From: Sanghuangporus weigelae
Lineage: Eukaryota; Basidiomycota; Agaricomycetes; Hymenochaetales; Hymenochaetaceae
Length of the DNA stretch: 64,000 bases
Direction of reading: 5' to 3'
Assembly (NCBI GenBank): GCA_033182465.1
Contig: CP137324.1
Location: 1,984,001-2,048,000 of the forward strand
Of the stretch, positions 31,524 to 62,786 are shown piece after piece. The notes beneath the pieces are model-generated. The model was not told the DNA's origin. It saw only the letters and a program-made list of their open reading frames with translations, and did no database searches. Positions within the stretch are counted from its first letter, which is position 1, and every line of letters starts with the position of its first letter. Both the position numbers and the translations under genes were made by a program.

Positions 31524-32471
31524 ATGCTTCCGCGCTTGCTCTTATTTGCAGGTATTGTTGCTCCCTGTATGCCGAACGTTCGCCCCCATAACCCTCTTTT
31601 GCTAAACTGGAAGATCATTTTGTTGCAGTTGGTGCCTTGGCTCAAAGCGCGACAATTTTCCCGGTGGCATTAGGCCCGGAAGCGAACTTGCAGGGTGAGA
31701 TCATCGGTAGTGGTGGGGAAGTTGGGACAACATTCGTTCTTAGCGGACAGACGCTTGGGATTTCATTCACTCGTCAGTTCCTTCTGCGCACTTACATTTA
31801 CGCCTCTCGTTCGCTCATCTGACCCCCTTTCTACCTTTCTGTGCCGGGAATTCCATTTATTTATAGTGACGCTCGCACAAGATGCAAGTCGGGTCGTAGA
31901 GAGAGTCGCCATCCCTTCGCGTTCTTACGACCTCAGCGTAGGATGCGTCGTTAGTGCCGGTTCTGCTATATGCCAGAACGTCGTCATTAGTGCGGGCGTT
32001 ACGAGCACTCCACCTTTGACGACGCTGCCATTCTCGCCATTTGTGGTACCTGTCTCGACTTCGGGTGTTTTGCCTAGTCCAATTTCTTCTGCTTCTGGAT
32101 CCGCATCGGCGACTGCTACGACTGTGTTCACTTCCGTCCCAACTTCTTCCTTAATTTCTTCTGCTTCTGGATCCGCATCGGCGACTGCTACGACTGTGTT
32201 CACTTCCGTCCCAACTTCTTCCTTGGTGACGAATGAGCCAACGACGTCATCGGCTTCAGCTTCCACGCCTGTGGTCGCGTCCTCGGTGATAACCTCGCAA
32301 GTTACCGTCTCCGCGTCAAGTGCTGGCGTTAGCCCCAGTGCATCGACAGCAACTCTCGCTTCCCCAAGTGCATCTCAATCTGATACGAGCGATGGATCCA
32401 AAATGAGGACCTTCTCTCCTGCCGTTGCCTTGATAGTCCCAATTGCTATAGCACTCTGGATCGTTAAATAG
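31524..32471 (+). CDS. Small secreted Ser/Thr-rich protein, probably GPI-anchored (paralog 3)
   Basis: Exons 31524-31551, 31629-31772 and 31867-32471, in frame, 258 aa. Signal peptide MLPRLLLFAVGALAQS. The core (ATIFPVALGPEANL, GSGGEVGTTFVLSGQTLG, TLAQDASRVVERVAIP, VGCVVSAGSAICQNVV) is very close to paralog 1. A long Ser/Thr/Ala-rich region follows and includes two perfect tandem copies of a 24-residue unit. The C-terminus is hydrophobic (ALIVPIAIALWIVK), consistent with GPI attachment. It is longer than paralog 1, mostly in the Ser/Thr region. Function unknown. Confidence 0.78.
32081..32224 (+). repeat. Perfect 72-bp tandem duplication inside paralog 3
   Basis: Two adjacent copies (32081-32152 and 32153-32224) look identical base for base and keep the reading frame. 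They encode a unit beginning ISSASGSASATATTVF. Perfect identity points to recent expansion of the Ser/Thr-rich stalk. Confidence 0.9.
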
Positions 32472-37006: not shown

Positions 37007-38107
37007 TGTCTTTTGCTTACAATTATTGTTTTGCACATATGTACACATATCTATCTTGAATAGATCGGGTGTGCCTTACCACCATTTTCAGTGGTGTTTT
37101 CGCCATGTCCCTACTTAGTACTAGTACTTCCTAAGTTTGTGATGAAGGCCATGCTCTCAAGCTAGTGATAAGCAGTCAGGTGACCACGAGTCGCCGCGTC
37201 TCCGACTCCGAGTCCCACACGGTTCTTTCGTCTTCCATCATATACCATCTTGGCGTTTCACTTTTTCGGCTCAAATGTCTGCGTGTTGGTATCTGCTACC
37301 GAGACTAGTCAGGATCTGATTCTTTCCTTGCAATGCAACATGCTTGAGGACGAACATACGGGACGCAATGGTCGGAAAAATCACCGCAGCGTTCAAGTTG
37401 TCGTGGAACTAGTTTGAAAGCAACGCATAAATTTAAATATTAAATCGTTCGAGTTTCATCCAGCCCATTTCCTCAAGCAAAGCAACTTGTGTTGGAAAAC
37501 CAATCTCGGAACAAAAACTGTCGCAACTACTGTACTTGCAAAGGTATGGCGTTAACGCAATATTATGTACAAAGGATGTTCATTTCATGCTACAGTCGAG
37601 AGTCTCTGAATCTGATGTCGCCATTTGAATTTTGTGACAATTGCTGAATAGGAGCGTGGAGTGAGCGTGGCAGCTCGCATACTTGCTTGATTAGTCGTGT
37701 GAGCATCACGTAGAGATCGTTGTTCAGCTTTACATTGCCACTATTGTAGGCGAGGCTGACCCTGGCTGACCGGGTATGCCATGTTCAGAAAAAATGAAAT
37801 CGTAATGCATGCCACTGTGTGTATATCCAGCTTGTCCTCCTGTACGCTGCATCATCATCTGTTCTCTGCACTTAATAACCACTGTATGATCAGCCTGAGG
37901 GTACGTGGAACCTGGATAGAGCTTGCTTAGTCTCCGACACTCGACAGGTAATTTCAGCACGAAAACAATTGTCCTACCCTTAAGGATAATGACTGTTCCC
38001 CTTTTCTTATGGCTTATGTTTTCTGACCAATGGGAGGCTCAGTCTTGGACGTTTAGTATAAATATAGCACAACTCTCATAGTGGGGGGAGAGCGGAGTGG
38101 GAGCTGA
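37007..38107. other. Intergenic left of element B
   Basis: Nothing with support: a 76-codon minus ORF at 37730-37960 has no recognisable family. A TATA-like tataaata at 38058-38065 could serve the flank, but no gene follows before the LTR. The last five bases (GCTGA) are the left target-site duplication of element B. Confidence 0.45.
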
Positions 38108-39619
38108 TGTTAGGGAGTAGGCCCGGGGTTACACCGGTTTGATCCTTTTGCCTAAGCAGCGGTGTGTTGTGCAGAGGTGATCTTATCTACCCACGTCTGG
38201 CTGTACCACGCGGTCCCTTACTAGCCTTCCTAGTCGCGGTCCGAGTTATGGATGCTTTCAGATACGAGGTAATAGTAAAGCAGGTTGGGATTTCCAAGAG
38301 GCGTGATAGTACAAAGCACACAGTAATAGCTCGCTGTAGGGCAAGCTTTACACCAGTGTGGTAAGAGGATCGAAAGATGGGGAAATGAGGGCCTAATCCT
38401 ACAACTATTTATGCTCCCAGATATTCCATTTTCCGTCCTATTTCTTACTCATCCTGTCTCCACTTTACTCCACTTTCCTCCACCATTACATCTGTTCCTT
38501 TGTCATCCTGCTGCGCTTCGCTCCACTTTGCTCCAATCTTTGTAAGGTCGTCTCCACTATGACAGAATTCTTTGGAGTTGCTGACTGAGACAATAGAGGT
38601 GGTGCTCCGATATGGAATGCTCCACTGTCAGTACTCCATAACGATGTCATTGCCGTCATTGAGTGGCATCTTTGCTCTTGGAGCGATGTAGGCTGCTCGG
38701 TATGTGATTCTTCGGAATTCATCTCGAGGTCCAGCGAGGGTAAGCATAACTCGCACGTCAGTGTTAAGGTGTCGGGTCGGTGTAGAGTATGGTCCAAGGC
38801 ATATCATGAACTGCATAAGCTCTGCTGGTGGGTTCTGCTGGGTTCTGGTGACTAGCCATGCTTTGCCTTCGTATCGTATATCTCGAATGTAGCGCCATAT
38901 CCTTCGTTGTATAAGGAGTTGTAATTGCTTGGTTTCCAGGTTCGCATCTCTCGGTAAATAAAGGTTTGCCTGTATCGTAGATGCTGGACATGGTGTGTGC
39001 AACTCCGGTCTATACCATCCAATCATTCTCCAAGTTATCGGGTTCGCAGTTCGAGGGGTCCGAGTTGTGATCGTGAGTTCCTCTCGTTTCTTGGGTACTA
39101 TTGGGCTTGGTGGATTGGAATGCATTGTATCCTGAAGGTGTCGCTCGGTTTCGATGTGACAGTCACGCGTACCAACCGTTGCCGTGCATACTAAGTAGTA
39201 TACTTCATAAAGGACCATGTAAACTCGTGCACAGACTTGACAGTGCTGAAATGCCAGTGAGGTCTCCATAAACCTTATTAGCCTTTAGCCTTTTAGCGTT
39301 TAGGCTTTAGTAGTTGTGCTTCTGGACTTCTAAGAAGTTTGATCGCTTCTTTTGATCGAGGTCGCTCTGGTTGCTTGGTCGGCGGCGTTAGAGTGGTAGT
39401 CCGCGGTAATAGGCGGTCGGCGGTGTTAGCTGTTAGCGGGATTACGTATCCGCTTCGGTGCTTCTAGCGCTCGGGTGGTAACGGGTTACTGTTGCCTAGG
39501 CCGCTCGATTGCTTGGGCCTTTGATAGCTGGCTTGGTTACCGGTCGCGTTTGGAAAGCTGATCGTGTAGATCTGTTGATCGCGTTGATCCTGATGCGAGA
39601 TTTTGAGCGGATCCTTTCA
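38108..39619 (-). repeat. 3' LTR of element B (1512 bp)
   Basis: On the element's strand it starts TGAAAGGATCC and ends CTCCCTAACA. It contains a 213-codon ORF (38628-39269) in the U3 part and a TATA-like cataaata downstream of that ORF, about 1.2 kb into the LTR, which would leave a short R-U5 of about 300 bp. Confidence 0.93.
38628..39269 (-). CDS. ORF-L: 213-aa protein encoded inside the LTR (3' LTR of element B)
   Basis: ORF lying wholly in the U3 region, in the element's sense direction. It opens METSLAFQHCQVCARVYMVL, with a cluster of Cys and His residues in the first 45 positions (CQVC, then C and CH further on) that might bind a metal. The middle is basic (PKKREELTITTRTPRTANP) and followed by WRMIGWYRPELHTPCP and LQLLIQRRIWRYIRDIRY. 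No family recognised. The same full-length ORF is present in every LTR copy in the window (49423, 58783, 61564). In the 3' LTR it would be the last gene on the genomic RNA, a position used by LTR-encoded accessory genes of some retroviruses. Confidence 0.6.
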   Translation of the reverse strand: METSLAFQHCQVCARVYMVLYEVYYLVCTATVGTRDCHIETERHLQDTMHSNPPSPIVPKKREELTITTRTPRTANPITWRMIGWYRPELHTPCPASTIQANLYLPRDANLETKQLQLLIQRRIWRYIRDIRYEGKAWLVTRTQQNPPAELMQFMICLGPYSTPTRHLNTDVRVMLTLAGPRDEFRRITYRAAYIAPRAKMPLNDGNDIVMEY

Positions 39620-39743
39620 CTACACCCCCCCTAAGATGAACTTTCGGAGAAATGTTCATCCTAATCCGTGAGAAAGCTCGGATAAAGGGTCGCCTAGTGA
39701 TGGTTGATTTTTGCTATCAAACCATCATCATCTCTGCTCCAAA

Positions 39744-40059
39744 ATGTCGAAAGTCGCCGCTGCTGTTACTGTTTTTGTCGTTATTGTCGCGATTTTCGGC
39801 ATAAATCATTGGATTTTGGAGCGTAAGAGGCGTGCTCAGGTAAGTGATGCATGCTCTGTGCCGTTTCAAGTCGTTAATCTTCCTCTAGGAGGCCGACTTT
39901 GAAATGCAATCGTTCCAGCGCGATGTTACGACTGTTGCGCTTCGAGTTCACCTCGCGCTCGGTTATGACGTTGAGGATATCGATCCAGTCGTCGAAAATG
40001 CAGGTATTGCTTCGCAGGAACGTCGTGAAAAGGGTGTCTGGGAAGACATTGACTTGTAA
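39744..40059 (+). CDS. Antisense spliced gene in element B: 88-aa predicted membrane-anchored protein
   Basis: Runs opposite to gag-pol, between ORF-X and the 3' LTR. Exon 1 (39744-39839) encodes MSKVAAAVTVFVVIVAIFG, an N-terminal membrane anchor, then NHWILERKRRAQ, a basic stop-transfer-like end. A 49-bp intron (39840-39888, GTAAGT...CTCTAG) joins it in frame to exon 2 (39889-40059), encoding a soluble, acidic tail (EADFEMQSFQRDVTT..., ending GVWEDIDL). The intron fits the size and signals of host introns. Being antisense to the genomic RNA, it would not be removed during retrotransposition. Promoter: possibly the adjacent LTR edge; a weak gataaagg is near 39681. No family recognised; a captured host gene is possible. 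Confidence 0.55.
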
Positions 40060-40615
40060 AGGGTGGTGGGAAGGGATATGAATATGAAATGTGCATCATG
40101 TAAAGAATATGACGCAATTGAAAGTGATAAGAAAGAAATTATAAAGTCATTAAAATCATTAAGTCGTTAATGAATAAGTTTTATACCAATTTGGGAGTGA
40201 AGTTCCAGGTGTTTACCTACGGCTCTTCAACCCCCAAATGGAGTTTTTCGAAGAAAGAGTGTAATTGGAGTGCCTTTCAGCGTGAAGGCACATCCTAGCA
40301 TAATGCAAGGGAGTGACTTCACGTAAACTTTTGGCTTCTCCGTTGCATAGAGGATAATAAAAGGTAGGCATAATCTGCTAATTCGGAGCCGGCACAATAA
40401 AACAATATACAAAATGTCTAGGCCCTTGTAGGTTCTTTGACACTTCTGCATAGTGCTTCATTTGTGCTGGTTGGCCGAATAAGCGTGAAATAAAGAGGTG
40501 CATAAAGCATAATTTGGTCGGATGTGACCATAAATATCATAAGGTAAGAATGAAATGCATAATTGACCATGTCGGGTCACGATATGGGAAAGGGGTTGCA
40601 TAAAAGAAGAGTTGT

Positions 40616-41692
40616 TTACAAATCTTCGGATTCTTCAGCCTCAGGTGTAGTCTGGGCCGAGTTCGCTGGGGTATATAGTTCCCTGCTTTCACCTTCTTCA
40701 CTTGACTCTGTATCGTCGGAGTGTATGTACATGTCCTCCTGTTCCGACATAGTAAGCATCTCGTCCGGCTGGTAGAGTTCGTTCGGGTACTGGTAGACTG
40801 AGATCATCAGATCTTCCAGCAAGGGGTGTCGTGTAGCCTGTAGTTTTTCTCTGGCTTCTTCCTCTCGGTTGTTGAGTTCCATAAGGTAATGAGGGTCGTA
40901 GTTAACCTCTTTGCCTTCGACTACGTGGTGCTCGATGTTGTCGAGTGGTACCTCGTCCGTAGTAGAGTTCCTTGCTTCAATAACCGTTCGGTATCTCGTT
41001 CCTTCGTAATACTTCGTCATGTTGAGTACCGTCATGAACTGCATGGTGTGGGATGCATAGAAGCCCGTCTGGTCGGCTATGTATATAATGTACTTCATCG
41101 CATCGATGCTCATCGGGTGATAGTGACTCCATCGCATCATTCGGTTAAGAATTGCGGTAGTCATGTCTCGTCGGTAGGCGCAAATTTGAATTGCCGAATG
41201 ATAGATGCCCATGATGTTCTTGTATGTCGTTTCGTGCCTAAAGTCGATCTTGCCTCGATGTAATGCTTGTGTTTCGAGTTCGATCGCGTAGGTTAGAAAT
41301 GCATCATCATTGAGTCGGCGTAATGCTGCGTCTCGAGGGTTACTGAGTTTGAATAACCACTCGTCTGAGTGATTCGCCATCATAAGATGGGGTATTTCGT
41401 CTCGGTTGTGGTGGACTGCGTTCCACTTGTCAAATAGATCGTCGAAGTACTTTCCTGGGCATAGGGGTACGATTTCGTCTTCGTAGTTCTCTTCGTTGAA
41501 TCGGTTGCACAGCTGTGGCCATTGATAACGTTCGGTCGGTGGCCTAAGTGCAAATGTCCATTCTGGTGCATCTTCTGGTTGACAGAATGCATGTAGCTCA
41601 TCGAAGATAGGCATAGCTGAGTAGTAGTTCGTCTGCAGTGAAGTAGAGCTGTTGAGATTCGAGTTGTTGTTCCTTAGCTCGAAGTTCTCCAT
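40616..41692 (-). CDS. ORF-X: 358-aa protein after pol in element B
   Basis: Sense ORF where env would lie in a retrovirus. It has no signal peptide, membrane segment or cysteine pattern, so it is not an envelope by appearance. It looks globular and His/Tyr/Met/Asn-rich in the middle (DEWLFKLSNPRDAALRRL; MTTAILNRMMRWSHYHPMS), with an acidic tail (SDDTESSEEGESREL). Other starts exist. No family recognised. It is open over its full length in a very young element, which fits a working gene but does not prove one. Confidence 0.6.
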   Translation of the reverse strand: MENFELRNNNSNLNSSTSLQTNYYSAMPIFDELHAFCQPEDAPEWTFALRPPTERYQWPQLCNRFNEENYEDEIVPLCPGKYFDDLFDKWNAVHHNRDEIPHLMMANHSDEWLFKLSNPRDAALRRLNDDAFLTYAIELETQALHRGKIDFRHETTYKNIMGIYHSAIQICAYRRDMTTAILNRMMRWSHYHPMSIDAMKYIIYIADQTGFYASHTMQFMTVLNMTKYYEGTRYRTVIEARNSTTDEVPLDNIEHHVVEGKEVNYDPHYLMELNNREEEAREKLQATRHPLLEDLMISVYQYPNELYQPDEMLTMSEQEDMYIHSDDTESSEEGESRELYTPANSAQTTPEAEESEDL

Positions 41693-41867: not shown

Positions 41868-44800
41868 CTATTGCCTCATTCGTTTTCGTGCGGCGATCCA
41901 TTGGTTAAGGTTCGGTGGCTGGATTGCCTGAGGATACTTTTTATGGAATGCTTCGATCATTTGATAGGAGTTCTTGAGGTTGTCAAGTGGCTCCCATGTT
42001 CGCTCCTGGTATCCTTTCCATTGGATAAGGTATTGGACCTTGCTCCGATGACGTCTTGTGTTATGAATTGTCTCCACTTCGTACTCTGCTTCTCCCTCCA
42101 CTTCAATAGGTGGTGGTTCATCCAAAGTGGGTCTTCCAGGGTATTCCTTTCGTTTGTAAGGCCTGAGAAGACTCGCATGAAACACTGGGTGGATCGGAAG
42201 GGTTTCGGGTAAGCGTAATCTGAATGACACTTGTCCGACTGCCTTCTCGACTTTATAAGGCCCTGCCCATTTCATTGCAAGTTTCTTCGTTGGTTCCAAT
42301 CGACTGAGATTCCTCATGTCTAGTAACACTTCGTCTCCCGGCTTGTACTCTGGCAGTTTGCCTCGATGCAGGTCTGCATAAAGCTTCATTGCTTCATTCG
42401 CTTGCCTAATCGAATTATAGGCTTCTTGCTGTACTTGTCGAAGCTCCTCTAGGTGATTTATTGCTTCTGGGACGTTTGAATCACCGGTCTCCGCAACGTC
42501 CAGGTGAGGATGCCATCCATACAGTGTATAGAATGGTGACTGATGTGTAGTACTGTGCTTCCTGTTGTTGTAGGCGAATTCTGCTATATCGATGTACTCT
42601 GCCCAATCTGTTTGTCGGTAGGACACATAGCAGCGTAAGTACTGTTCAAGCTCTTGATTTAGTCGCTCGGTTTGACCATCGGTTTGTGGATGATACGCTG
42701 TACTAGTTTTCCAATCGACATCGATGAGTCTGCAGAACTCCTTGAGGAATTGCGCGGTGAAGTTGCTACCTCGGTCGGAGATTACTCGTTTAGGGGCCCC
42801 GTAGTATTTGAAGACATGTTGGCGGAACAAACGTGCCAACTGCTTAGCATTGGGTATTCCTTGGCAAGGAATGAACTTCCCCATTTTAGTGAGTTTGTCC
42901 ACTATAACGAGTATCGCGCTGTAGCCTTCATTGCTGACTGGTAAGTCGGTAATCAGGTCACAGGTTATGGTTTCCCATGGTTGATGTGGTGCCTCCAACG
43001 GTTGGAGCGGCGGATTTCGAAACTGTCGAATCGGTTTTGCACGCTGACATATGTCGCAGGTTGCGGTATATGCTCGGATCATTTCTTCCATCTTCGGCCA
43101 ATAGTATGATCGCTTTACAAGCTCTATGGTCTTTTCTGCTCCTGGGTGGCCTGCAAGTTTGTGATCATGGCGCCTTCGGATTAGCAACGCTCGTAGGTTG
43201 GCGGACGGCGGGATATATAATGCATTGGTTACGTAGTGCAAGCCGTTCCTGTAACTGTAGCCGTTGCTCTGCTTGATCGCCTGAATTTCCTTCTTAGCCT
43301 CCTCGGTATTGTAGTTCCTCTTGATCGTTCGGATAATAGGATCAGAGATAGTGACCATTTCAGTTTCTAGCTTGTATAGACCGTTGATCTCTGTGCGTCG
43401 CAATGTTTGTTGCTTGATCGTATCAGGAGGTAATAAGGTAACTCCTAAGTTGTCCTTGTCCTCTGGCATATAGTCGGATCGTCGTGATAGCTCGTCAGCT
43501 TGGTTCTTCTTGCCTGGCCAATGGAGAATCTTGAAGTTATATCGTGATAACTCTAATGCCCATCTCGCTTGACGTCTCGATAGATTCTGAGCTGTCATGA
43601 AGTATCGGAGATTTGCATGATCGCTTCGGATTGTTACTGGTTCTTTGGTTCCCTCCAATAGGTGTCTCCAATGCTTGAGTGCTTCCATGATTGCTAGCAT
43701 CTCTTTGTCATGCGTCGGATAGTTTCGTTGGGTGTTCGTTAGAGTTTTCGACATGAAACCTAAAGGTCTCAGTTCTCCTTGGTTGTCTTCTTGTTGTAAG
43801 ACTGCACCAATCGCTACATCGGATGCATCGGTTTCCAATGTATATGGTTTGTCTGGCTTTGGCATTGCCAATGCGACTTCCGTTTCGAATGCCTTCTTGA
43901 TACTTTCGAATGCCTTATCTTGTGCCTCTGCCCATATGAACTTGCGATCCTTTTTGATAAGGTCGCCAATAGGTGCGAATGTATCGGCATAGTTCCTGAT
44001 GAATCTTCGGTAGAAGTTACAAAATCCTTGGAACTTTCGAACTTGTCGTTTCGTCTTTGGCACTGGCCATTCGTGAATAGCTTTGAGCTTATAAGGATCC
44101 ATCTGGATGCCTTTCGTTCCTACTACAAATCCCAAGTAGTCGAGCTGGGTTTGGAGGAAGTGACATTTCTCGATTTTGAGGTAAATGTCGAGCTCTCGGC
44201 ATTTCTGTAGAATTGCCCTGAGGAGTTTCCAATGTTCCTCTTCAGTTTGTGCTTGACCAATAAGGTCGTCCAAATAGTTGAGTGCTTCTTCTGTCCTGAG
44301 CCAATATTCGAAGTTGTCATTCATGAATCGTTGGAATACTGCAGGTGAGTTCTTCATTCCAAACATCATGACCTTTGGCTTGTAGACTGCATTGCCAACT
44401 CGGAATGCTGCCTTCCACTCGTCTCCTTCTCGGATTCGCAGGTTATTGTAACCTGATCGCATGTCGAGTGTAAAGAAGAATTTTCCTTTCTCCAGTTTCT
44501 CTGGGAGAACACTCATGATCGGTATCGGGTATGGGTCTGATACTGTCGTGTCGTTGATGTCTCGGTAATCGGTTACTGCTCGTGCTCCTCCGTCTTTCTT
44601 TCCTACAAAGAAGACTGGTGCTGCTACCGGACATGGTTCATGTGGTTGAACCTTTTCAATCCATCCTTTGTCAAGTAACTCTTTGACATAAGCATCGAGT
44701 GCTGCCTGCTCTTCTCGTGTGAGCTTGATAATAGGCCTCGGTTTCGGTAATGGTACTCCTTCTTTGAGGTTAATTGCCATATCCCATTTCGTATGCTTGG

Positions 44801-46346
44801 GTAACCTTCTTGACTTGTCAGGATCAAAGACATCTGCGTAGTCTTCTATTTCCTTTGGTAGGAGTTTTCGCCAATCTCGTTTCTGTGTTCCTAGTAGTCC
44901 TTCTGCAGCTGCCTTTTGTTGAGAATACTGCTGGGATACTGAACTCGCTTTGTTCAGAGGCTGTGAGACTTGGTTCTGCTGCCTTGGTGACCAATTTCGA
45001 TTGATGTCTAGCTCTAGCTTTGCAGCGAGCTCTTCCTTTCTGGTAAGGGTAGTTGGTTGGTTGGTCGTCCTAAGACTTTCAATGTCTTCTGGCTCTATAT
45101 CGTGCATAGGAGTGTCTTCTGTTGTCTCCTGCTCGTCTTGCATCTCGATATCGCTTTCGTTGTCTGCCCATCTTGTACGCTTCGGTGTGGGACTAGCTCC
45201 TCGCATTAACGATGCCGTTCTCGGTCGTATAATGCCTGCCACTGGCTTCTCTGGATACCGTGTCTTTCGTGGTCGTATCCTATACTTCATGCCCGGGTTT
45301 TCTTCTGGTGATGGCCAGAGTTCTTCATCTTCCGGCATGTTTTGCCTCAGTGGGTGTATCTTCTGTGGTGGTTGTTTCTTCCAACGTTTCGGAGAGTCGT
45401 TTATTTCCTCCTGTTCGTCTAGGCTATGCTTGCCTGTTACATCTTGTGTTTCACCTTCGGATGTCTGGTACAGTTGCCGTGCTGGGATCATCCGTCTCGG
45501 TATGTGCCTTGGTCGTCGTTGCACTATACTCGTTCCTTGTGGTGCCTGTTTCTTCCATCGCTTGGGAGTGTAGTTTATTTCCTCCTCATCTCGATGATGC
45601 TTGTTTGCCGTTTCCTGTTGTGGCTGTTTCGTTGCAGAGTCTGGTATATTTTCCGTGCTCGGACTCTTCACTTCTGGCGTCTGTTTTGCCTGTTCCAGTC
45701 TTGGTGTTGCTGGTCTTGCTTCCGGCTTCACTTGTGGCTTCATTTCGTGAGAGTGTCCGTTGTTGTCTCTCCTTGGCGCAAATATTATTCCTGGTGCTCC
45801 AGAGTGTCGATAGTTGTCTCTGTCCTGAGCCTGTTGCTTCGTGTTATGCCTAGGTCTTGTCTTGTCAGGTTTGCCTTTCGTTTGCCGTTTCCGTTTGCGC
45901 TTCCTGTGCCTTCGCTTCTTGGTAGCTCGTATGACGTTGAGCTCGAATGGTATCGAATTACCATTCCGATTCCATACTTGATTCTTCCAATCAATTTCGG
46001 GATTGACTTTGGCCAAATAGTCAATTCCTAGGATCACTTGATCCTGTCCTGTGGTTGCTACTGCCAACGTTTGTGGCTGCGGTCTAGGTCCATCAAAAAT
46101 TAATGTGTAGACCTCGTGCGTGATTGCTCCTCCTTGGTTGGGACTTCCATCTGCATTATTCAAAGGTCGAGGGTGATCAAGCCTCTTTTTGAATAGGCTG
46201 TAGTGTCGTACCAAGTTGGGGTGTATCGTGCTGCATGTAGCTCCGGAATCGATTAACGCTTTGACTGCTAGGGTCTTTGTTCCAACCTTCACTCGAATAG
46301 GTAATCGGGGATGCAATGCTTGTATTGGCAATCGCTTATTGTACAT
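41868..46346 (-). CDS. pol: Pol polyprotein of element B (PR-RT-RH-INT-chromodomain)
   Basis: 1492 codons, open throughout. Order: aspartic protease (LIDSGATCSTIH, near residue 32); a long Pro/Lys/Arg/Glu-rich linker to about residue 480; reverse transcriptase (FFTLDMRSGYNNLRI, MFGMKNSPAVFQRFMND, YLDDLIGQA); RNase H (LETDASDVAIGAVL, HDKEMLAIMEAL, IRSDHANLRYF); integrase zinc domain (HDHKLAGHPGAEKT, CDICQRAKP) and core (CDLITDLPVS, SDRGSNFTAQFL, YHPQTDGQTERLNQELE); GPY/F-like end; and a chromodomain (VQYLIQWKGYQERTWEP). The chromodomain is thought to steer integration to modified chromatin. Gag and Pol are in different frames about 105 bp apart; the mechanism of Pol expression is not evident from sequence. 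Confidence 0.93.
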   Translation of the reverse strand: MYNKRLPIQALHPRLPIRVKVGTKTLAVKALIDSGATCSTIHPNLVRHYSLFKKRLDHPRPLNNADGSPNQGGAITHEVYTLIFDGPRPQPQTLAVATTGQDQVILGIDYLAKVNPEIDWKNQVWNRNGNSIPFELNVIRATKKRRHRKRKRKRQTKGKPDKTRPRHNTKQQAQDRDNYRHSGAPGIIFAPRRDNNGHSHEMKPQVKPEARPATPRLEQAKQTPEVKSPSTENIPDSATKQPQQETANKHHRDEEEINYTPKRWKKQAPQGTSIVQRRPRHIPRRMIPARQLYQTSEGETQDVTGKHSLDEQEEINDSPKRWKKQPPQKIHPLRQNMPEDEELWPSPEENPGMKYRIRPRKTRYPEKPVAGIIRPRTASLMRGASPTPKRTRWADNESDIEMQDEQETTEDTPMHDIEPEDIESLRTTNQPTTLTRKEELAAKLELDINRNWSPRQQNQVSQPLNKASSVSQQYSQQKAAAEGLLGTQKRDWRKLLPKEIEDYADVFDPDKSRRLPKHTKWDMAINLKEGVPLPKPRPIIKLTREEQAALDAYVKELLDKGWIEKVQPHEPCPVAAPVFFVGKKDGGARAVTDYRDINDTTVSDPYPIPIMSVLPEKLEKGKFFFTLDMRSGYNNLRIREGDEWKAAFRVGNAVYKPKVMMFGMKNSPAVFQRFMNDNFEYWLRTEEALNYLDDLIGQAQTEEEHWKLLRAILQKCRELDIYLKIEKCHFLQTQLDYLGFVVGTKGIQMDPYKLKAIHEWPVPKTKRQVRKFQGFCNFYRRFIRNYADTFAPIGDLIKKDRKFIWAEAQDKAFESIKKAFETEVALAMPKPDKPYTLETDASDVAIGAVLQQEDNQGELRPLGFMSKTLTNTQRNYPTHDKEMLAIMEALKHWRHLLEGTKEPVTIRSDHANLRYFMTAQNLSRRQARWALELSRYNFKILHWPGKKNQADELSRRSDYMPEDKDNLGVTLLPPDTIKQQTLRRTEINGLYKLETEMVTISDPIIRTIKRNYNTEEAKKEIQAIKQSNGYSYRNGLHYVTNALYIPPSANLRALLIRRRHDHKLAGHPGAEKTIELVKRSYYWPKMEEMIRAYTATCDICQRAKPIRQFRNPPLQPLEAPHQPWETITCDLITDLPVSNEGYSAILVIVDKLTKMGKFIPCQGIPNAKQLARLFRQHVFKYYGAPKRVISDRGSNFTAQFLKEFCRLIDVDWKTSTAYHPQTDGQTERLNQELEQYLRCYVSYRQTDWAEYIDIAEFAYNNRKHSTTHQSPFYTLYGWHPHLDVAETGDSNVPEAINHLEELRQVQQEAYNSIRQANEAMKLYADLHRGKLPEYKPGDEVLLDMRNLSRLEPTKKLAMKWAGPYKVEKAVGQVSFRLRLPETLPIHPVFHASLLRPYKRKEYPGRPTLDEPPPIEVEGEAEYEVETIHNTRRHRSKVQYLIQWKGYQERTWEPLDNLKNSYQMIEAFHKKYPQAIQPPNLNQWIAARKRMRQ

Positions 46347-46450: not shown

Positions 46451-47539
46451 TTAATCTTTTCCCTGTTGCTCTTTACTTGCTAGGGATTTGCGAATGTTGT
46501 TTCGGTATTCTTCGTCATGCTTGCAAGTCCATCCTGCTGATTCGTCGCCTTTAGCCCATGCTACATGGTCGTAGTGGACTGGCCTTCGGCAGTGTGGATC
46601 GGGACATGTTTCCTTGAAATCGATTGTTCGTGTTGTCATCGTCCTCCGTTTTACACCATTAGTCTTCTTCGGCCGCTTAGAGGAAGAACCCTTTTGCTTC
46701 CTTGGTGCCTTGCAATCCTTTGCATAATGTCCTGACTTTTCACAGTTGTAGCATTTGCCTCCCTTCTTCGGCAAGCCTCGGAGTGCATCTACATCCATGG
46801 CGTCTGGATCTCGTTTCGTTGTTTGTACTGGTGGTCGGAAAGATGACTGTCCGTTCGATTTGAATCTCGGGGTGTATGTTTGACTACCCATGAGCCTTTG
46901 CCTGGCATCAGAGTTTGCTAGGTTGCTTGTCCATTCCATCCATGCATCGAGGTCGTTCTTCTCGAAAGCGTCGGGTTGTACAGATTCGACTCGTCGTTTG
47001 ACCCACATGTCTAGTCCTTTGACATAGATGTACTTGAGCATCTGCTTATCCATCGTGTCTGGTGCTCGTGCTTTGAGTCGTCGGAATTCGTCGTTGTACG
47101 CCCTAATGCTTGCTCCTTTCTGCTGGATGCATAGTAGTTGGAATAGGGCTTCCTGTTCTCCAATGATCGGATGTCCTGCTCGGATCCTCATCCAGTTCAG
47201 CATGTCCTTGAGTGATGCGAACATTCCATTTGTTGCAGCGATAATCGCAGGTACTGGTTTCAGTTTCCCATTGGCATCGAATGATGTTAGGGTATTCTTC
47301 TCCGCAAACCAATCGTAGCTGTCGCCTTCTAGTGCCGCAAATAGGCTCTTTGCGATCTCCTCCTCATCCTTGACTCCATGCTGTGCCAGCTTCGAGATAC
47401 ATCGACTAATCCACAGATCAATATCTTCGCTTCGCTTGCCATAGTACTTCGGAAGCTTGATGCTGTGTTTAGAGAGTTGTGTCTGAAGAGTCTGTAGTTG
47501 CTGCTCCAGTGCTTGCACCTTCTGGTCGGTTGTCGACAT
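46451..47539 (-). CDS. gag: Gag of element B with CCHC zinc knuckle
   Basis: 362 aa. It starts MSTTDQKVQALEQQLQTLQ (coiled-coil-like), then a capsid-like helical region typical of Ty3 Gag (IDLWISRCISKLAQHG; FAALEGDSYDWF; EQEALFQLLCIQQKGAS). A classic CCHC knuckle follows (CYNCEKSGHYAKDC) with a Lys/Arg-rich tail. A second Cys/His cluster lies near the end (CPDPHCRRPVHYDH). It forms the virus-like particle shell and packages RNA by analogy with Ty3. Its 5' end overlaps ORF-B by 71 bp in another frame. Confidence 0.88.
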   Translation of the reverse strand: MSTTDQKVQALEQQLQTLQTQLSKHSIKLPKYYGKRSEDIDLWISRCISKLAQHGVKDEEEIAKSLFAALEGDSYDWFAEKNTLTSFDANGKLKPVPAIIAATNGMFASLKDMLNWMRIRAGHPIIGEQEALFQLLCIQQKGASIRAYNDEFRRLKARAPDTMDKQMLKYIYVKGLDMWVKRRVESVQPDAFEKNDLDAWMEWTSNLANSDARQRLMGSQTYTPRFKSNGQSSFRPPVQTTKRDPDAMDVDALRGLPKKGGKCYNCEKSGHYAKDCKAPRKQKGSSSKRPKKTNGVKRRTMTTRTIDFKETCPDPHCRRPVHYDHVAWAKGDESAGWTCKHDEEYRNNIRKSLASKEQQGKD

Positions 47540-48503
47540 GATCGTAAGTGCTTATGGGCACTGCTGGTGGTGAATAGGATGGTGGTGGTGGATTCTCTGG
47601 CGCTTGGGTTGCTACTGAACCACTTGCTGGTACTGCAGGTACTGTTGGTACTTGGATGATAACCGTTCGAGGTGGGGTTCTGAGTAAGAATGGCCTTCGT
47701 GATGCTTCTTCGTCTGAGGACACTGATTCGTCAGAACTCTGTTCCTGTTGGGCTCTCTCTCTTGGTAGAAAGTATTCCCAGCGTTGTGCTGCCTGAGCTA
47801 CTTCTCGAATTCGTTGAGCGTGTTCGAGTATGTTCCTTGAGGTAGTTTCGGTTGTCTGTACCGATGTGAGTATAGCTGCGTAGGTGCGTTGACTCGACTC
47901 GATTGTTTGTCCTAGTTGGAGTAGGGCTTCTCGCAGGTTATGGATGTCTTGAACAATCCTTGGTTGATCTAGAGCTGTCCTGTTAAGCTCTCCGACTCTC
48001 GTCTCGATTGTTTGTAGTTGTTGTTCCTGAGCAGTAATCCTGTTCCGGATAGCGTTGAGCTCTCGGTCAAGTACTCCGTTTCCGTCTATGACCCGATGAT
48101 TGAGTGCTCCTGCTGCTCGATCCAATTCCAGAGTATATCTCTCTAGAGCTGCTACTTGTGCTCCAATTCTTTGAGTAGTTGCTTCTAGTGCTTCGAATCG
48201 ATCTCCTACTGCTGTCGCGTATGCTCCGGTTGGTAGACTGTTTGACTGCCCCGTGTTTGCAGTTCGTTCTTCCAGTCTTTCAACCCTTTCTTGTAGCCTT
48301 CTGATCACTGGTGGATACAATATGCTGTGGTTCGTTGTCGCGTATAGTATGTCGTGATCGCTTTCCAGACTACGTAGTCTGTTGGTGATGTGTTGAACTC
48401 GTTCGTCGAGGGATCTAGGTGTGAACCTCGTTTGATTCTCGTTCGCCCGTTCGTTCGTTCGATGACCGTTACTTCTGTTGTTGGCGTTTCCCGATCGGTT
48501 CAT
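47469..48503 (-). CDS. ORF-B: 344-aa coiled-coil protein upstream of gag in element B
   Basis: Starts MNRSGNANNRSNGHRTNERA (Asn/Arg-rich), then long heptad-like stretches (RLRSLESDHDILYATT; RRLQERVERLEERTAN; LNAIRNRITAQEQQLQTIETR) and an acidic Ser/Glu patch, then a Pro-rich tail (PENPPPPSYSPPAVP). PPPPSY resembles a PPxY late-domain motif. Its start codon overlaps the stop of ORF-A (ATGA), and its end overlaps the start of gag. It may be an N-terminal Gag-type structural protein made separately. A near-identical copy starts at 63125 in element C. Confidence 0.6.
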   Translation of the reverse strand: MNRSGNANNRSNGHRTNERANENQTRFTPRSLDERVQHITNRLRSLESDHDILYATTNHSILYPPVIRRLQERVERLEERTANTGQSNSLPTGAYATAVGDRFEALEATTQRIGAQVAALERYTLELDRAAGALNHRVIDGNGVLDRELNAIRNRITAQEQQLQTIETRVGELNRTALDQPRIVQDIHNLREALLQLGQTIESSQRTYAAILTSVQTTETTSRNILEHAQRIREVAQAAQRWEYFLPRERAQQEQSSDESVSSDEEASRRPFLLRTPPRTVIIQVPTVPAVPASGSVATQAPENPPPPSYSPPAVPISTYDHVDNRPEGASTGAATTDSSDTTL

Positions 48504-48902: not shown

Positions 48903-50414
48903 TGTTAGGGAGTAGGCCCGGGGTTACACCGGTTTGATCCTTTTGCCTAAGCAGCGGTGTGTTGTGCAGAGGTGATCTTATCTACCCACGTCTGGCTGTA
49001 CCACGCGGTCCCTTACTAGCCTTCCTAGTCGCGGTCCGAGTTATGGATGCTTTCAGATACGAGGTAATAGTAAAGCAGGTTGGGATTTCCAAGAGGCGTG
49101 ATAGTACAAAGCACACAGTAATAGCTCGCTGTAGGGCAAGCTTTACACCAGTGTGGTAAGAGGATCGAAAGATGGGGAAATGAGGGCCTAATCCTACAAC
49201 TATTTATGCTCCCAGATATTCCATTTTCCGTCCTATTTCTTACTCATCCTGTCTCCACTTTACTCCACTTTCCTCCACCATTACATCTGTTCCTTTGTCA
49301 TCCTGCTGCGCTTCGCTCCACTTTGCTCCAATCTTTGTAAGGTCGTCTCCACTATGACAGAATTCTTTGGAGTTGCTGACTGAGACAATAGAGGTGGTGC
49401 TCCGATATGGAATGCTCCACTGTCAGTACTCCATAACGATGTCATTGCCGTCATTGAGTGGCATCTTTGCTCTTGGAGCGATGTAGGCTGCTCGGTATGT
49501 GATTCTTCGGAATTCATCTCGAGGTCCAGCGAGGGTAAGCATAACTCGCACGTCAGTGTTAAGGTGTCGGGTCGGTGTAGAGTATGGTCCAAGGCATATC
49601 ATGAACTGCATAAGCTCTGCTGGTGGGTTCTGCCGGGTTCTGGTGACTAGCCATGCTTTGCCTTCGTATCGTATATCTCGAATGTAGCGCCATATCCTTC
49701 GTTGTATAAGGAGTTGTAATTGCTTGGTTTCCAGGTTCGCATCTCTCGGTAAATAAAGGTTTGCCTGTATCGTAGATGCTGGACATGGTGTGTGCAACTC
49801 CGGTCTATACCATCCAATCATTCTCCAAGTTATCGGGTTCGCAGTTCGAGGGGTCCGAGTTGTGATCGTGAGTTCCTCTCGTTTCTTGGGTACTATTGGG
49901 CTTGGTGGATTGGAATGCATTGTATCCTGAAGGTGTCGCTCGGTTTCGATGTGACAGTCACGCGTACCAACCGTTGCCGTGCATACTAAGTAGTATACTT
50001 CATAAAGGACCATGTAAACTCGTGCACAGACTTGACAGTGCTGAAATGCCAGTGAGGTCTCCATAAACCTTATTAGCCTTTAGCCTTTTAGCGTTTAGGC
50101 TTTAGTAGTTGTGCTTCTGGACTTCTAAGAAGTTTGATCGCTTCTTTTGATCGAGGTCGCTCTGGTTGCTTGGTCGGCGGCGTTAGAGTGGTAGTCCGCG
50201 GTAATAGGCGGTCGGCGGTGTTAGCTGTTAGCGGGATTACGTATCCGCTTCGGTGCTTCTAGCGCTCGGGTGGTAACGGGTTACTGTTGCCTAGGCCGCT
50301 CGATTGCTTGGGCCTTTGATAGCTGGCTTGGTTACCGGTCGCGTTTGGAAAGCTGATCGTGTAGATCTGTTGATCGCGTTGATCCTGATGCGAGATTTTG
50401 AGCGGATCCTTTCA
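48903..50414 (-). repeat. 5' LTR of element B (1512 bp)
   Basis: Matches 38108-39619 along its full length with one noticed difference. It carries its own intact ORF-L (49423-50064, 213 codons). On the element's strand it is followed directly by TTGGATCGAAAGATC; this may hold the primer-binding site, but I could not match it to a tRNA. Confidence 0.93.
49423..50064 (-). CDS. ORF-L copy in the 5' LTR of element B
   Basis: Same 213-codon ORF as 38628-39269, with a single amino-acid difference noticed (Gln/Arg in TRTxQNPP). In the 5' LTR it lies upstream of the presumed TATA, so it would not be part of the genomic RNA. Confidence 0.55.
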   Translation of the reverse strand: METSLAFQHCQVCARVYMVLYEVYYLVCTATVGTRDCHIETERHLQDTMHSNPPSPIVPKKREELTITTRTPRTANPITWRMIGWYRPELHTPCPASTIQANLYLPRDANLETKQLQLLIQRRIWRYIRDIRYEGKAWLVTRTRQNPPAELMQFMICLGPYSTPTRHLNTDVRVMLTLAGPRDEFRRITYRAAYIAPRAKMPLNDGNDIVMEY

Positions 50415-52364
50415 GCTGAGCAGTTCTCACATCGTCTCAAGTCCCCCAGCTTCGAGTTCTACTTGTTCATAGTGGACTCTCTCGTCTCTAAAGTCTAATA
50501 TACGATATTTCGTGTTCTGCACAGTCAATCGGTGATCTCTCTTCGCAGCAGAGCCGTTCGTACGTTCGTACAGTTCGCCGTGTTTGTGTAAAGGACTCCT
50601 CTTGTCTCTATCATCCGTATCGAAACCTCCTCGCGTGTTCCGATCTGTTTCACTGGTTTCGCTCGTAACCCCGTTACCTAGCATGCCACGTGCTTTCGGA
50701 CTCGCAAGACCTCCCCTTCTCCACTGTCGTCGGAAAAGGACACCATATCATCCTTTTCCATCACCGTACAGTCCCTCCGTCCATCGTATCGCGTTTCGAA
50801 TCATTACACTGCGTTCCGACACTTTAGACTACGAGTGAGATCAGCTGCTGTCGCTTCCCAGTGTGTTAGCCCAGTCGATTAGTCACGTTCGAGTTGGTGG
50901 TTTGACTAGCGTAGCATTAGTTAGATTAGTTCTCGTGCCTTGTGTTAGTCGGCTTTAGTCCAGAGCTCGCAGTTGAGCCGGAGAGTTGATTTAGCCTTCG
51001 TACCGCCACCATCAATCTTGGGAGAAGTCCATCCTCGGAACCATTCCTCAAGTGCTTCCCATGCGTTCCTCGGCCCTCATACGACCCTTCCCTCGTATAT
51101 TCCCTTATCCCTTCGTTTCCGCTTGCCTTTGGTCTAGGTGTAACTCTCTGCTGACTACTCAAAGGTATTCTAGGGCAGCCCCTCGAACTTTATATTCCCT
51201 GTCCGGTATCAGAACGCCCACAGGAGTTTCATCGGCGAACCCCAATCGGAAGTCCGAACCTCAGAGGCCACTTCGGCAAAGTCCGAACAACAGAGCACAC
51301 CTCGTGGAATGTCTAGGATGAAGGTACGCGACCATTGGGTACCTTGAAACAGGTCAGAACGGTCCCTGGCAGTGTGAAACGCTGATGAAAAGGCCTAGGG
51401 TCCCTTCAAGAGTCTGGGCCCAGGCTTCGGAGTGCCGATATCCGCTCGGGTGACTGAGGCGGAGGTCGGCGAGTGGTAGTGTGACAAAGTATGGACAACG
51501 AAATATGGTGTGGCGCCTATCGCGCAGTATTAGCGGGTCTTTGGGGTCTCGGAATGTGACATATGTGCAATGGAAGGTGAAACGGGGTGAGCCAAGATAT
51601 GTACAAAGTCTCGGGCGTGTCCTAAGGTATGGCAGAGCGCTCGGAAGGATCGAATCGAGTCGTATACACCCTTTGTGACTGTTGGAGTCACTCGGGCAGC
51701 TGATACACCAGTGTGTTGGACACTGGTGAAGTATGTACAATACTCGACCGCTGATGCCCAGAATAGCGGTGTGCGCTACAGCAAAGACATGCAATTGTCT
51801 TGTTTTTTTGAGTTTCAGTGTGATGATTTCCTGCACGCTCGAGCTTGATGAAACGTACGCGTTGTACTTGTTCTTCGCTTGTACACGATGTGCCGTCTTC
51901 ATTAAGGTATGACCTTTTTGTTTTGAAGTTCGCATGCATTGATTTGAATGTCTGGTTTTTGTGCGTGGTTCCGTCTCCACCGATAGTAAAAGCTTTTTTT
52001 TTACTTGGTAAGAATTGCATGTTTCCTGATTAAAAAAAAAAGGCTTACATGGTGTTCGTTTCATTTCATAGGCAAGCTGAAGCTTCCCGGCAATATCCGC
52101 CTCAGAGACGATTCAACCAACAGTCCGTGGGCTGACACGTTGTATTTTCTTCTTCTGGGTAATACCAAGCCAGCTGCATGCAGTGCGAATAAAACTGTCT
52201 ATTATTTCGCCCACCCGTTTTGCTGGACAGCCAAGTAAAGCAATACGAAGCACGAGCGAACAAACCCAAGGCAAGTAAGCCCCATTCTGTCTGAGCTGAA
52301 GAAGGCTCTTAATAGCAGCTTCAATTCTTTTGAGTTTTTGTATACGCTTAGCAGCCCTTGACAG
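50415..52364. other. Repeat-like, gene-free stretch right of element B
   Basis: 50415-50419 is the right target duplication. The phrase 'ctcctcttgtctctatcatc' near 50598 resembles 'ctcctctcgtctctattagc' near 54213, hinting at shared LTR R/U5-like sequence. 'ggtatcagaacg' near 51204 resembles the initiator-Met tRNA primer site used by many LTR elements. About 51985-52042 holds a T10 run and an A10 run 44 bp apart that could pair. No gene with support. Confidence 0.35.
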
Positions 52365-58432: not shown

Positions 58433-59946
58433 TGAAAGGATCCGTTCAAAAACTCGCATCAGGATCGACGCAATCAACAGATCTACACGATCAGCTTTCC
58501 AAACGCGACCGGTAACCAAGTCAGCTATCACGGGCCCAAGCGATCGAGCGGCCTAGGCAACAGTAACCCGTTACCACCCGAGCGCTAGAAGCACCGAAGC
58601 GGATACGTAATCCCGCTAACAGCTAACACCGCCGACCGCCTATTACCGCGGACTACCACTCTAACGCCGCCGACCAAGCAACCAGAGCGACCTCGATCAA
58701 AAGAAGCGATCAAACTTCTTAGAAGTCCAGAAGTACAACTACTAAAGCCTAAACGCTAAAAGGCTAAAGGCTAATAAGGTTTATGGAGACCTCACTGGCA
58801 TTTCAGCACTGTCAAGTCTGTGCACGAGTTTACATGGTCCTTTATGAAGTATACTACATAGTATGCACGGCAACAGTTGGTACGCATGACTGTCACATCA
58901 AAACCGAGCGACACCTTCAAGATACAATGCATTCCAATCCACCAAACCCAATAGTACCCAAGAAACGAGAGGAACTCACAATCACAACTCGAACCCCTCG
59001 AACTGCGAACCCGATAACTTGGAGAATGATTGGATGGTATAGACCGGAGTTGCACACACCATGTCCAGCATCTACAATACAAGCAAACCTTTATTTACCG
59101 AGAGATGCGAACCTGGAGACCAAGCAATTGCAACTCCTTATACAACGAAGGATATGGCATTACATTCGAGACATACGATATGAAGGCAAAGCATGGCTAG
59201 TCACCAGAACCCAGCAGAACCCGCCAGCAGAGCTTATGCAGTTCATGATATGCCTTGGACCATACTCTACACCGACCCGGCACCTCAACACTGACGTGCG
59301 AGTTATGCTTACCCTCGCTGGACCTCGAGATGAATTCCGAAGAATCACATACCGAGCAGCCTACATCACTCCAAGAGCAAAGATGCCACTCAATGACGGC
59401 AATGACATCGTTATGGAGTACTGACAGTGGAGTATTCCACATCGGAACACCACCTCTATTGTCTCAGTCAGCAACTCCACAAGAATACTGTCATAGTGGA
59501 GACGATCTTACAAAGATTGGAGCAAAGTGGAGCGAAGCGCAGCAGGATGACAAAGGAACAGATGTAAAGGTGGAGAAAAGTGGAGTAAGGTGGAGACAGG
59601 ATGAGTAAGAAATAGGACGGAAAATGGAATATCTGGGAGCATAAATAGTTGTAGGATTAGGCCCTCATTTCCCCCATCTTTCGATCCTCTTAACACACTG
59701 GTGTAAAGCTTGCCCTACAGCGAGCTATTACTGTGTGCTTTGTACTATTACGCCTCTTGGAAATCCCAATCTGCTTTACTATCACCTCGTATCTGAAAGC
59801 ATCCATAACTCGGACCGTGACTAAGAAGGCTAGTAAGGGACCGCGTGGTACAGCCAGACGTGGGTAGATAAGATCACCTCTGCACAACACACCGCTGCTT
59901 AGGCAAAAGGATCGAACCGGTGTAATCCCGGGCCTACTCCCTAACA
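58433..59946 (+). repeat. Solo LTR of family B (about 1514 bp)
   Basis: Full-length LTR, plus orientation, TGAAAGGATCC...CTCCCTAACA, with no internal element sequence on either side. It is visibly more diverged than the other three copies, many changes being CG to CA or TG, so it is older. It lacks a matching 5-bp target duplication (atatc left, catac right). It keeps the full ORF-L. Confidence 0.88.
58783..59424 (+). CDS. ORF-L copy in the solo LTR
   Basis: The 213-codon ORF is intact here even though the LTR is the oldest copy and the rest of its element is gone. It differs from the 61564 copy at six residues. By eye I count about 21 base differences, roughly two thirds silent, more silent than expected for drifting non-coding DNA. 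Confidence 0.5.
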   Translation: METSLAFQHCQVCARVYMVLYEVYYIVCTATVGTHDCHIKTERHLQDTMHSNPPNPIVPKKREELTITTRTPRTANPITWRMIGWYRPELHTPCPASTIQANLYLPRDANLETKQLQLLIQRRIWHYIRDIRYEGKAWLVTRTQQNPPAELMQFMICLGPYSTPTRHLNTDVRVMLTLAGPRDEFRRITYRAAYITPRAKMPLNDGNDIVMEY

Positions 59947-60810
59947 CATACAGCTTTGCGGCGACTCTAGATGCCTCCGAGTCGGCCCCCCATGGTGCCA
60001 ATCGATGCGGTGGACACTCAGACATCCTCAGGTACCTTCGCCGATGCCTCCTACAGCTTACCAAGCAGTCCCCCATTGCCTAGGGAGCTATATATTGTCA
60101 TATGTGCTTACATGCCTAGTTACGACATATCTGGCACCGATCCAGCAGTCCCCCGCAGCACTGCCGCTCCAGCCACTCATATTAGTCACTAGGGATCGCC
60201 CACACTCTGTATTGAGTGCCGCCGACACATCGGACACCTCAGGGACATTGACTGATGCGCCCCTTGTCTTATATACACGATATTAGCCTCCAACCATCGG
60301 CTCTGACATTTCCCGACTTCCCCCCGATGCGGCGGCCCCCATTAGACCATGTATGGAAGGTAGGCATGTGGTACATTGGCGTGCCAAGCCCCCGACTCGC
60401 GCCGCTGAGCCCAACTCCGCTGGCGCCTGTATTATTGCAGATACTCGATATTTCATGCTATTGGATGCCCCCCTCACATTGCCACTCTCAGATTTCACCT
60501 GGGTGCTCCGGCAGCGGCCCTTGGTGACCCAGATGACTCAGGAGATGTTGTCAGACAGTAGGACATGTCAGCGACAGCAGCAGAGTATATATAGAGCTTA
60601 TATTAGGTTGGTAGACAGAAGAGACGATCATCTAAGAGAGCATGTACCAGACTGAGCGCCGGAATTCGAGATATCCCTCACTCTGAGTCTCCCCTCATGT
60701 ACTGAGCCTCCCCCTTGACTATATATTATCCTTGACACCTCCTCTTGCTTGATTCATCATTCTACCTGCCTTCGCCGCCTCTGATACGCCTCGGCCGCTC
60801 TGATATTCAG

Positions 60811-61213
60811 CGTAGGGCTCCGCACGTATCCGTACTTTACGGGTACAGGCCGCATCATATACAGATACGACCATGTCCGTACTACTCTCTGGGAGGGGAA
60901 TATATGGGCCGTATATGTGCGGCCGTGTCCGTCCCACAACTTGCCAGAAATTGACATATACGCCGTATACGCCGTATCCGGAGACTACCTATCACTCGGT
61001 AAGTCCAACAAGGAAATCACATAAAATCACAGAGTATTTTATCCGGTGCTCATTCATTTCACCCTTATCTAGGCAAAAGGTCCAAATCAAGCATTTCTCG
61101 GACCAATTCAGGCCTTGCTAGGGTCCGACAACAGTTTTCTCATGGTATTAGGTAAATGATTTCTTATCTAATCTCTTTTCAAAATCACTAGTACTTACTA
61201 ACCGGTCTCGAAG
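60811..61213. other. Palindrome-rich stretch left of element C
   Basis: Contains short inverted motifs (cgtatccgtactttacgggtac; ggccgtatatgtgcggccg; tacgccgtatacgccgtatcc) near 60815-60980. No gene seen. The last five bases before element C are CGAAG. Confidence 0.4.
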
Positions 61214-62725: not shown

Positions 62726-62786
62726 TTGGATCGAAAGATCACTCGCTAGTTTTACCACCACCTCTCACGGGCAAGGTTCTTGGCTA

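Follow-up and report, generated by a model that had tools for sequence, protein, structure and literature searches.

The window analysed here, a 64,000-nucleotide stretch of contig CP137324.1 of Sanghuangporus weigelae, contains a chromodomain Ty3/gypsy retrotransposon on its minus strand (Table 1). We assigned the element by the domain content of pol, in which the Pfam profiles RVT_1 (E = 1.3e-25), rve (E = 3.2e-9) and Chromo (E = 3.9e-10) together mark a chromovirus. The element looks complete and young: a single mismatch in 1512 positions separates its LTRs, and a 5-bp target duplication (GCTGA; 38103–38107 and 50415–50419) borders it. Besides gag and pol, the minus strand encodes an upstream ORF and a further ORF, here called ORF-X, which matched nothing in Pfam and has 111 matches in the genome, fragments included.

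Between ORF-X and the 3′ LTR, in the orientation opposite to gag-pol, lies a gene of 88 codons in two exons, which are separated by a 49-nt GT-AG intron and continue each other's reading frame. It converges with ORF-X, the two stops being ~560 bp apart. A first-pass annotation had placed an antisense gene at this position inside a young chromovirus; the ORF positions, the LTRs and the pol domains bear this out, and re-reading the sequence recovered its coordinates and letters for both exons and the intron exactly.

Table 1 Features of the retrotransposon and its antisense gene (positions within the window)
Feature	Position	Strand	Description
3′ LTR	38108..39619	-	TG...CA ends; one difference from the 5′ LTR over 1512 positions
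Leader	39620..39743	+	124 bp, from LTR edge to ATG; three predicted hairpins; TATA-like GATAAAGG at 39681-39688
Candidate polypurine tract	39625..39631	-	G-run adjoining the 3′ LTR; assigned by position
Exon 1	39744..39839	+	ATG at 39744; 96 nt, 32 codons; predicted membrane span at about residues 2-24, then ERKRR
Intron	39840..39888	+	GTAAGT...CTCTAG, 49 nt; antisense to gag-pol
Exon 2	39889..40059	+	171 nt; acidic tail; TAA stop ends at 40059
ORF-X	40616..41692	-	358 aa; sense, retroviral env position; dN/dS 0.11-0.17 in 5 comparisons
pol	41868..46346	-	RT, RNase H, integrase and chromodomain above Pfam cut-off; protease-like match just below
gag	46451..47539	-	CCHC zinc knuckle above cut-off; weak retrotransposon-gag and Ty3-capsid matches below
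Upstream ORF	47469..48503	-	344 aa; overlaps gag by 71 bp; weak coiled-coil-type Pfam matches below cut-off
5′ LTR	48903..50414	-	1512-position pair partner of the 3′ LTR

Translation, hydropathy and charge likewise upheld the gene as first described, with a fungal-type intron and an 88-aa product carrying a predicted N-terminal anchor, ERKRR and an acidic tail. The protein has a single strongly hydrophobic segment, with hydropathy peaking at 2.41 over the 19 residues from residue 2 onwards, and its tail, residues 33–88, has a net charge of −9. The sole Pfam match was below the cut-off (E = 0.02), and the PDB search returned no match. An AlphaFold model of a relative from S. weigelae, built from 7 sequences, is one long helix (residues 3–56, mean pLDDT 66.5) with good confidence over about the first 30 residues only. 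Since no domain or structure match exceeded the cut-off and the model is weak, any role for the protein has to be read from its architecture alone.

We then examined the other copies of the gene. Exon 2 occurs at no fewer than 109 places in the genome (33.9 Mb, 13 contigs), of which 106, the window included, were read. All but one of these copies keep an open frame of exactly 88 codons, bounded by an ATG and a stop; the exception, L029, has one internal stop. The exon lengths, 96 and 171 nt, are the same in all 106. Every copy also retains the intron, at 49 nt in 103, 48 nt in one and 50 nt in two, with GT...AG ends throughout; the donor reads GTAGTG in a single copy (L025). The product that would be read without splicing varies from 41 to 74 aa across copies, indicating that the spliced product is what is kept. 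Most copies are young, and 46 of the 106 encode an identical protein.

A census by the core of the leader, blind to the gene, found 110 places: the 106 copies read, none of which departs from the core by more than one mismatch, three gene places that were not read, and L109, in which the leader runs up to the position equivalent to 39720 and is followed by other sequence, the change lying before the ATG position. Since this census is independent of the gene, the high proportion of intact copies was not produced by the search. All 106 copies adjoin a leader at least 85% identical to that of the window (below 93% in L009 only) and an LTR edge that is also at least 85% identical. Thus, the proposal that the element carries the gene holds for every copy read. 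Splicing of the genomic RNA does not take out an intron that lies on the opposite strand, and reverse transcription therefore passes the split gene on to new copies; consistent with this expectation, the predicted survival of the intron through retrotransposition is seen in 106 of 106 copies.

Protein searches, with the single sequence and then with two alignments, gave eight clusters of relatives, all from Sanghuangporus; the same searches, which reach relatives sharing short exact words, returned no homolog outside this genus. Full-length relatives are 88–91 aa long and, in the seven of eight clusters compared with it, 46–97% identical to the window protein. The S. weigelae relative (88 aa) is 97% identical and the 88-aa relatives from S. 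baumii are 58–64% identical, while two S. baumii clusters have 91 aa, one being 46% identical to the window protein and the other having been compared only with this sister cluster (91%). The annotated relatives match the spliced product end to end, in length and in sequence across the junction, which means that other annotators' pipelines reached the same product. Among the old copies, L009 is similar to the type found in S. baumii (its exon 2 matches P0005 at 69%), and this likeness points to an origin of the gene before these species separated, or to transfer.

These distributions bear on the suggestion, made in the first-pass annotation, that the gene might be a captured host gene, whether one with a present role in the host or one whose donor is still in the genome. 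The gene does have the form of a normal fungal gene, with its short intron and a pyrimidine-rich stretch before the ATG, and element copies filled the best ~150 protein and best 40 DNA matches listed from its own genome, so that a diverged element-free homolog could be hidden beyond them. However, none of those matches is free of the element, all 106 copies read have a leader and an LTR edge beside them, and relatives were confined to Sanghuangporus within the reach of the protein searches. The suggestion thus found no backing, and we regard a host gene of this kind as rather unlikely. The element may have captured a host gene in the distant past, but none of these data support this reading.

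We addressed selection on the spliced frame by several methods. L029 (C6:1294811-1298881) and L009 (C9:1699500-1707500) represent two lineages of the family that are old and decayed, the latter apparently broken up by nested insertions. Both differ from the window at ~60% of silent sites and at 31–36% of exon positions; in their introns 15 and 16 of 49 sites have changed, with one added base. dN/dS by the NG86 method was 0.09–0.43 in all 13 pairs tried, pairs that are not independent of one another. Against the window it was 0.23 for L009, 0.29 for L029, 0.24 for L020, 0.18 for L021, 0.16 for L024, 0.39 for L023, 0.09 for L022, 0.14 for L016 and 0.19 for L014; the remaining pairs gave 0.43 (L009–L029), 0.13 (L020–L024), 0.25 (L014–L009) and 0.27 (L014–L029). 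Pairwise maximum-likelihood estimates of omega, from nine pairs that again overlap with one another, ranged from 0.13 to 0.62 and were below 1 at p<0.05 in eight. The window yielded 0.24 with L009 (p=8e-5, the best value), 0.27 with L029 (p=0.001), 0.37 with L020 (p=0.046), 0.27 with L021 (p=0.012), 0.24 with L024 (p=0.008) and 0.13 with L022 (p=0.008), and the pairs L020–L024 and L020–L021 yielded 0.19 (p=7e-4) and 0.27 (p=0.003), respectively. Neutrality (omega=1) was not rejected for L009–L029 (omega 0.62, p=0.17).

The main family of 104 copies, from which L009 and L029 are left out, contains 33 silent and 31 replacement alleles against 181 and 611 possible, a ratio of 0.28, and no stop codon. 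Its variable sites are distributed over codon positions 1, 2 and 3 as 17, 12 and 34, of 88 each. In a six-frame control using uncorrected ratios, the annotated frame was the lowest of the three plus frames in six of six pairs. The antisense gene has no stop in L020, L021, L023 and L024, in which ORF-X has 3, 0, 2 and 3 stops in the aligned parts and 4, 0, 2 and 4 over the whole frame; as a yardstick for the intactness of the antisense gene, by which about two stops would be expected by a hand estimate, this comparison is only suggestive. Random, non-coding-like changes in the other copies, which the first-pass annotation had named as evidence against a gene, were looked for and not seen, either in dN/dS, in the likelihood estimates or in the 105 of 106 open copies. 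Taking together the intact copies, the fixed exon lengths, the dN/dS values and the full-length relatives in Sanghuangporus, we conclude with high confidence that this is a real coding gene of the element under purifying selection and not a chance frame.

The leader between the 3′ LTR and the ATG shows features of its own. In 104 of the 106 copies the TATA-like GATAAAGG lies ~55 nt upstream of the ATG. The window leader folds with z-scores of −2.6 on the plus and −2.4 on the minus strand, and two neighbouring stretches of the plus strand score −1.7 and −0.9. Similar hairpins are predicted in L009 (z −3.4 and −3.2) and in L029 (z −2.2 and −1.5, the latter, for the minus strand, being weakly better than shuffles). 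From the window leader, L029 differs at 7 of 123 positions and L009 at 17 of 123, and the two differ from each other at 13 of 123; the LTR ends of these copies differ from the window by ~20%. Only these two old lineages give evidence that the leader is conserved; in the main family of 104 copies it is not less variable (27/124) than the intron (10/49) or the 3′ flank (17/91). Exchange between lineages could also have caused the likeness. The leader is likely to provide the promoter and the 5′ region for the antisense gene, and its other strand is likely to form the segment of the genomic RNA that directly precedes the 3′ LTR. Two Rfam matches within 39300–40700 were far below their cut-offs and were taken as chance.

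A leader that is conserved and folds would also suit a non-coding antisense RNA as the functional product, one that pairs with the genomic RNA and feeds RNA interference or hinders sense transcription, the frame being incidental or secondary. Parts of the literature lend this idea a precedent: retroviral antisense transcripts are described as acting as RNA as well as mRNA (PMC10186651), and the same has been proposed for plant elements (PMC7264820). However, silent sites change faster than replacement sites, neither exon varies in length and divergence in the intron is about the same as in the exons, a pattern that RNA function alone does not predict. We therefore consider this reading quite improbable as a replacement for the coding gene, although both functions may hold at once.

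Alternatively, the constraint might belong to the sense strand, through an overlapping sense ORF or an RNA structure, with the antisense frame as a by-product. Minus frame 1, which shares its third positions with the annotated frame, indeed has low ratios (0.13–0.54 in six pairs, once below the annotated frame), but it has 5–6 stop positions in each of the six comparisons. Moreover, in the window copy every minus-strand frame is interrupted somewhere within the gene, and the one stretch of the gene that was folded, 39760–39878 on the plus strand, shows no unusual folding (z −0.9). This makes an origin of the signal on the sense strand highly improbable. Finally, we give next to no weight to a chance open frame kept only through the youth of the copies, which would fit the close similarity of most copies and the identical protein from 46 of 106, but which the divergence data in our view already refute, given that the old L009 is open and L029 has one stop at ~60% silent difference, with dN/dS of 0.23 and 0.29 to the window, and that S. 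baumii keeps proteins of 88–91 aa at 46–64% identity.

Antisense genes have been described in other retroelements, and parts of the published accounts allow a comparison. The first-pass annotation knew of none in fungal chromoviruses. This proved incorrect, because an antisense gene, brtn, is reported for the Boty-like elements of Botrytis (PMC7264820, PMC8365987) and the gag-pol of these elements carries a CHROMO domain (PMC4227169). As reviewed, brtn lies between pol and the 3′ LTR (PMC7264820); compared by description only, it thus resembles the Sanghuangporus gene in being antisense, in residing in a fungal element and in its position. The plant aORF-3R genes (Grande gene23, RIRE2, Retand and PvRetro13) are alike in position, orientation and retention in most copies, and gene23 has a promoter of its own (PMC7264820). 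Like them, the Sanghuangporus gene sits between pol and the 3′ LTR, runs opposite to gag-pol and is present in most copies; its dN/dS of 0.09–0.43, set against 0.11–0.17 for ORF-X, places its conservation in the same range or somewhat lower. The plant products differ: that of gene23 is nuclear (PMC7264820), and among the Retand antisense ORFs a TRP28 domain occurs in 57 of 104 and DNA-related domains in others (PMC11963269), whereas for the Sanghuangporus protein a membrane span is predicted and no domain scored above cut-off. Neither source uses the word "intron" in its main text (PMC7264820, PMC11963269), and one of them, a review, gives the function of antisense genes in LTR retrotransposons as unknown (PMC7264820).

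Among retroviruses, HTLV-1 HBZ, HTLV-2 APH-2 and HIV-1 ASP are antisense genes driven from the 3′ LTR (PMC10186651). Likened by description and without sequence comparison, the Sanghuangporus gene as predicted shares splicing of the transcript with APH-2 and a hydrophobic product located at membranes with ASP. HBZ and APH-2 are nuclear, however, and ASP overlaps env (PMC10186651), whereas no open minus frame spans the Sanghuangporus gene. Our search of the open-licence literature on antisense ORFs in fungal and gypsy elements and on Sanghuangporus retrotransposons, parts of which were consulted, found no fungal element with an antisense gene that contains an intron or is of the membrane type. 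In the literature searched, neither the intron nor the membrane anchor nor the measured selection is reported, and the structured, conserved 124-bp leader adds to these.

Given this architecture, we consider it probable that the gene is an accessory gene of the retrotransposon encoding an antisense, spliced, membrane-tethered 88-aa factor. Transcription would start from a promoter in the leader and/or in U3 of the 3′ LTR, and the antisense transcript would be spliced once. Its translation would yield an 88-aa protein with a single membrane span and, by the positive-inside rule, a C-terminal tail that is probably cytosolic. Because reverse transcription would leave the intron in place, each new copy would carry the split gene, and the full protein could be made only from a separately produced antisense mRNA. 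From the membrane, the acidic tail may contact a protein of the element or of the host and so affect assembly, transport or expression. For this last step, an accessory role exerted by a factor tethered to the membrane, we lean towards acceptance with somewhat less assurance. A membrane-bound product would, in our view, be unexpected for an element that is not thought to leave the cell.

A single genome holds more than 100 copies of the gene, S. baumii and S. weigelae both have relatives of it, and its selection signal is clear. Whether the product of such genes is a protein or an antisense RNA only is directly testable in this fungus, where the intron amounts to a built-in assay: a spliced plus-strand read can come only from the antisense mRNA.

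More tentatively, and with a good deal of doubt, the element might be viewed as a "complex" fungal chromovirus with a gene programme in two directions comparable to that of deltaretroviruses, built on a shared structured 124-bp segment and three extra genes with a purifying signal. The segment would act as promoter and 5′ region one way and as an RNA element before the LTR the other way. The extra genes would be the antisense gene, ORF-X and an LTR-encoded protein, with the 344-aa upstream ORF as a candidate fourth.

The LTR-encoded protein corresponds to a 213-aa ORF lying wholly inside the LTR, at 38628–39269 (minus strand) in the 3′ LTR and 49423–50064 in the 5′ LTR, and found again in LTRs at 58783–59424 and 61564–62205 (both plus strand). 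It had no match in Pfam. In the decayed LTRs of L009 and L029 the ORF is 74% and 68% identical, with 2 and 4 stops and dN/dS of 0.25 and 0.24, respectively. Partial comparisons gave 0.46 (L021), 0.32 (L023) and 0.22 (L024). Within the window, dN/dS is 0.12 against the LTR at 58–59 kb, and one silent base differs at 61–63 kb. Purifying selection on a protein encoded within an LTR would by itself be a notable finding. The latter two LTRs belong to the interval 58433–62726, where additional LTR copies of this family lie ~2.8 kb from each other; the second is followed by internal sequence that matches the element up to the end of the window. Elsewhere in the window, a 72-nt unit forms a perfect tandem pair at 32081–32224.
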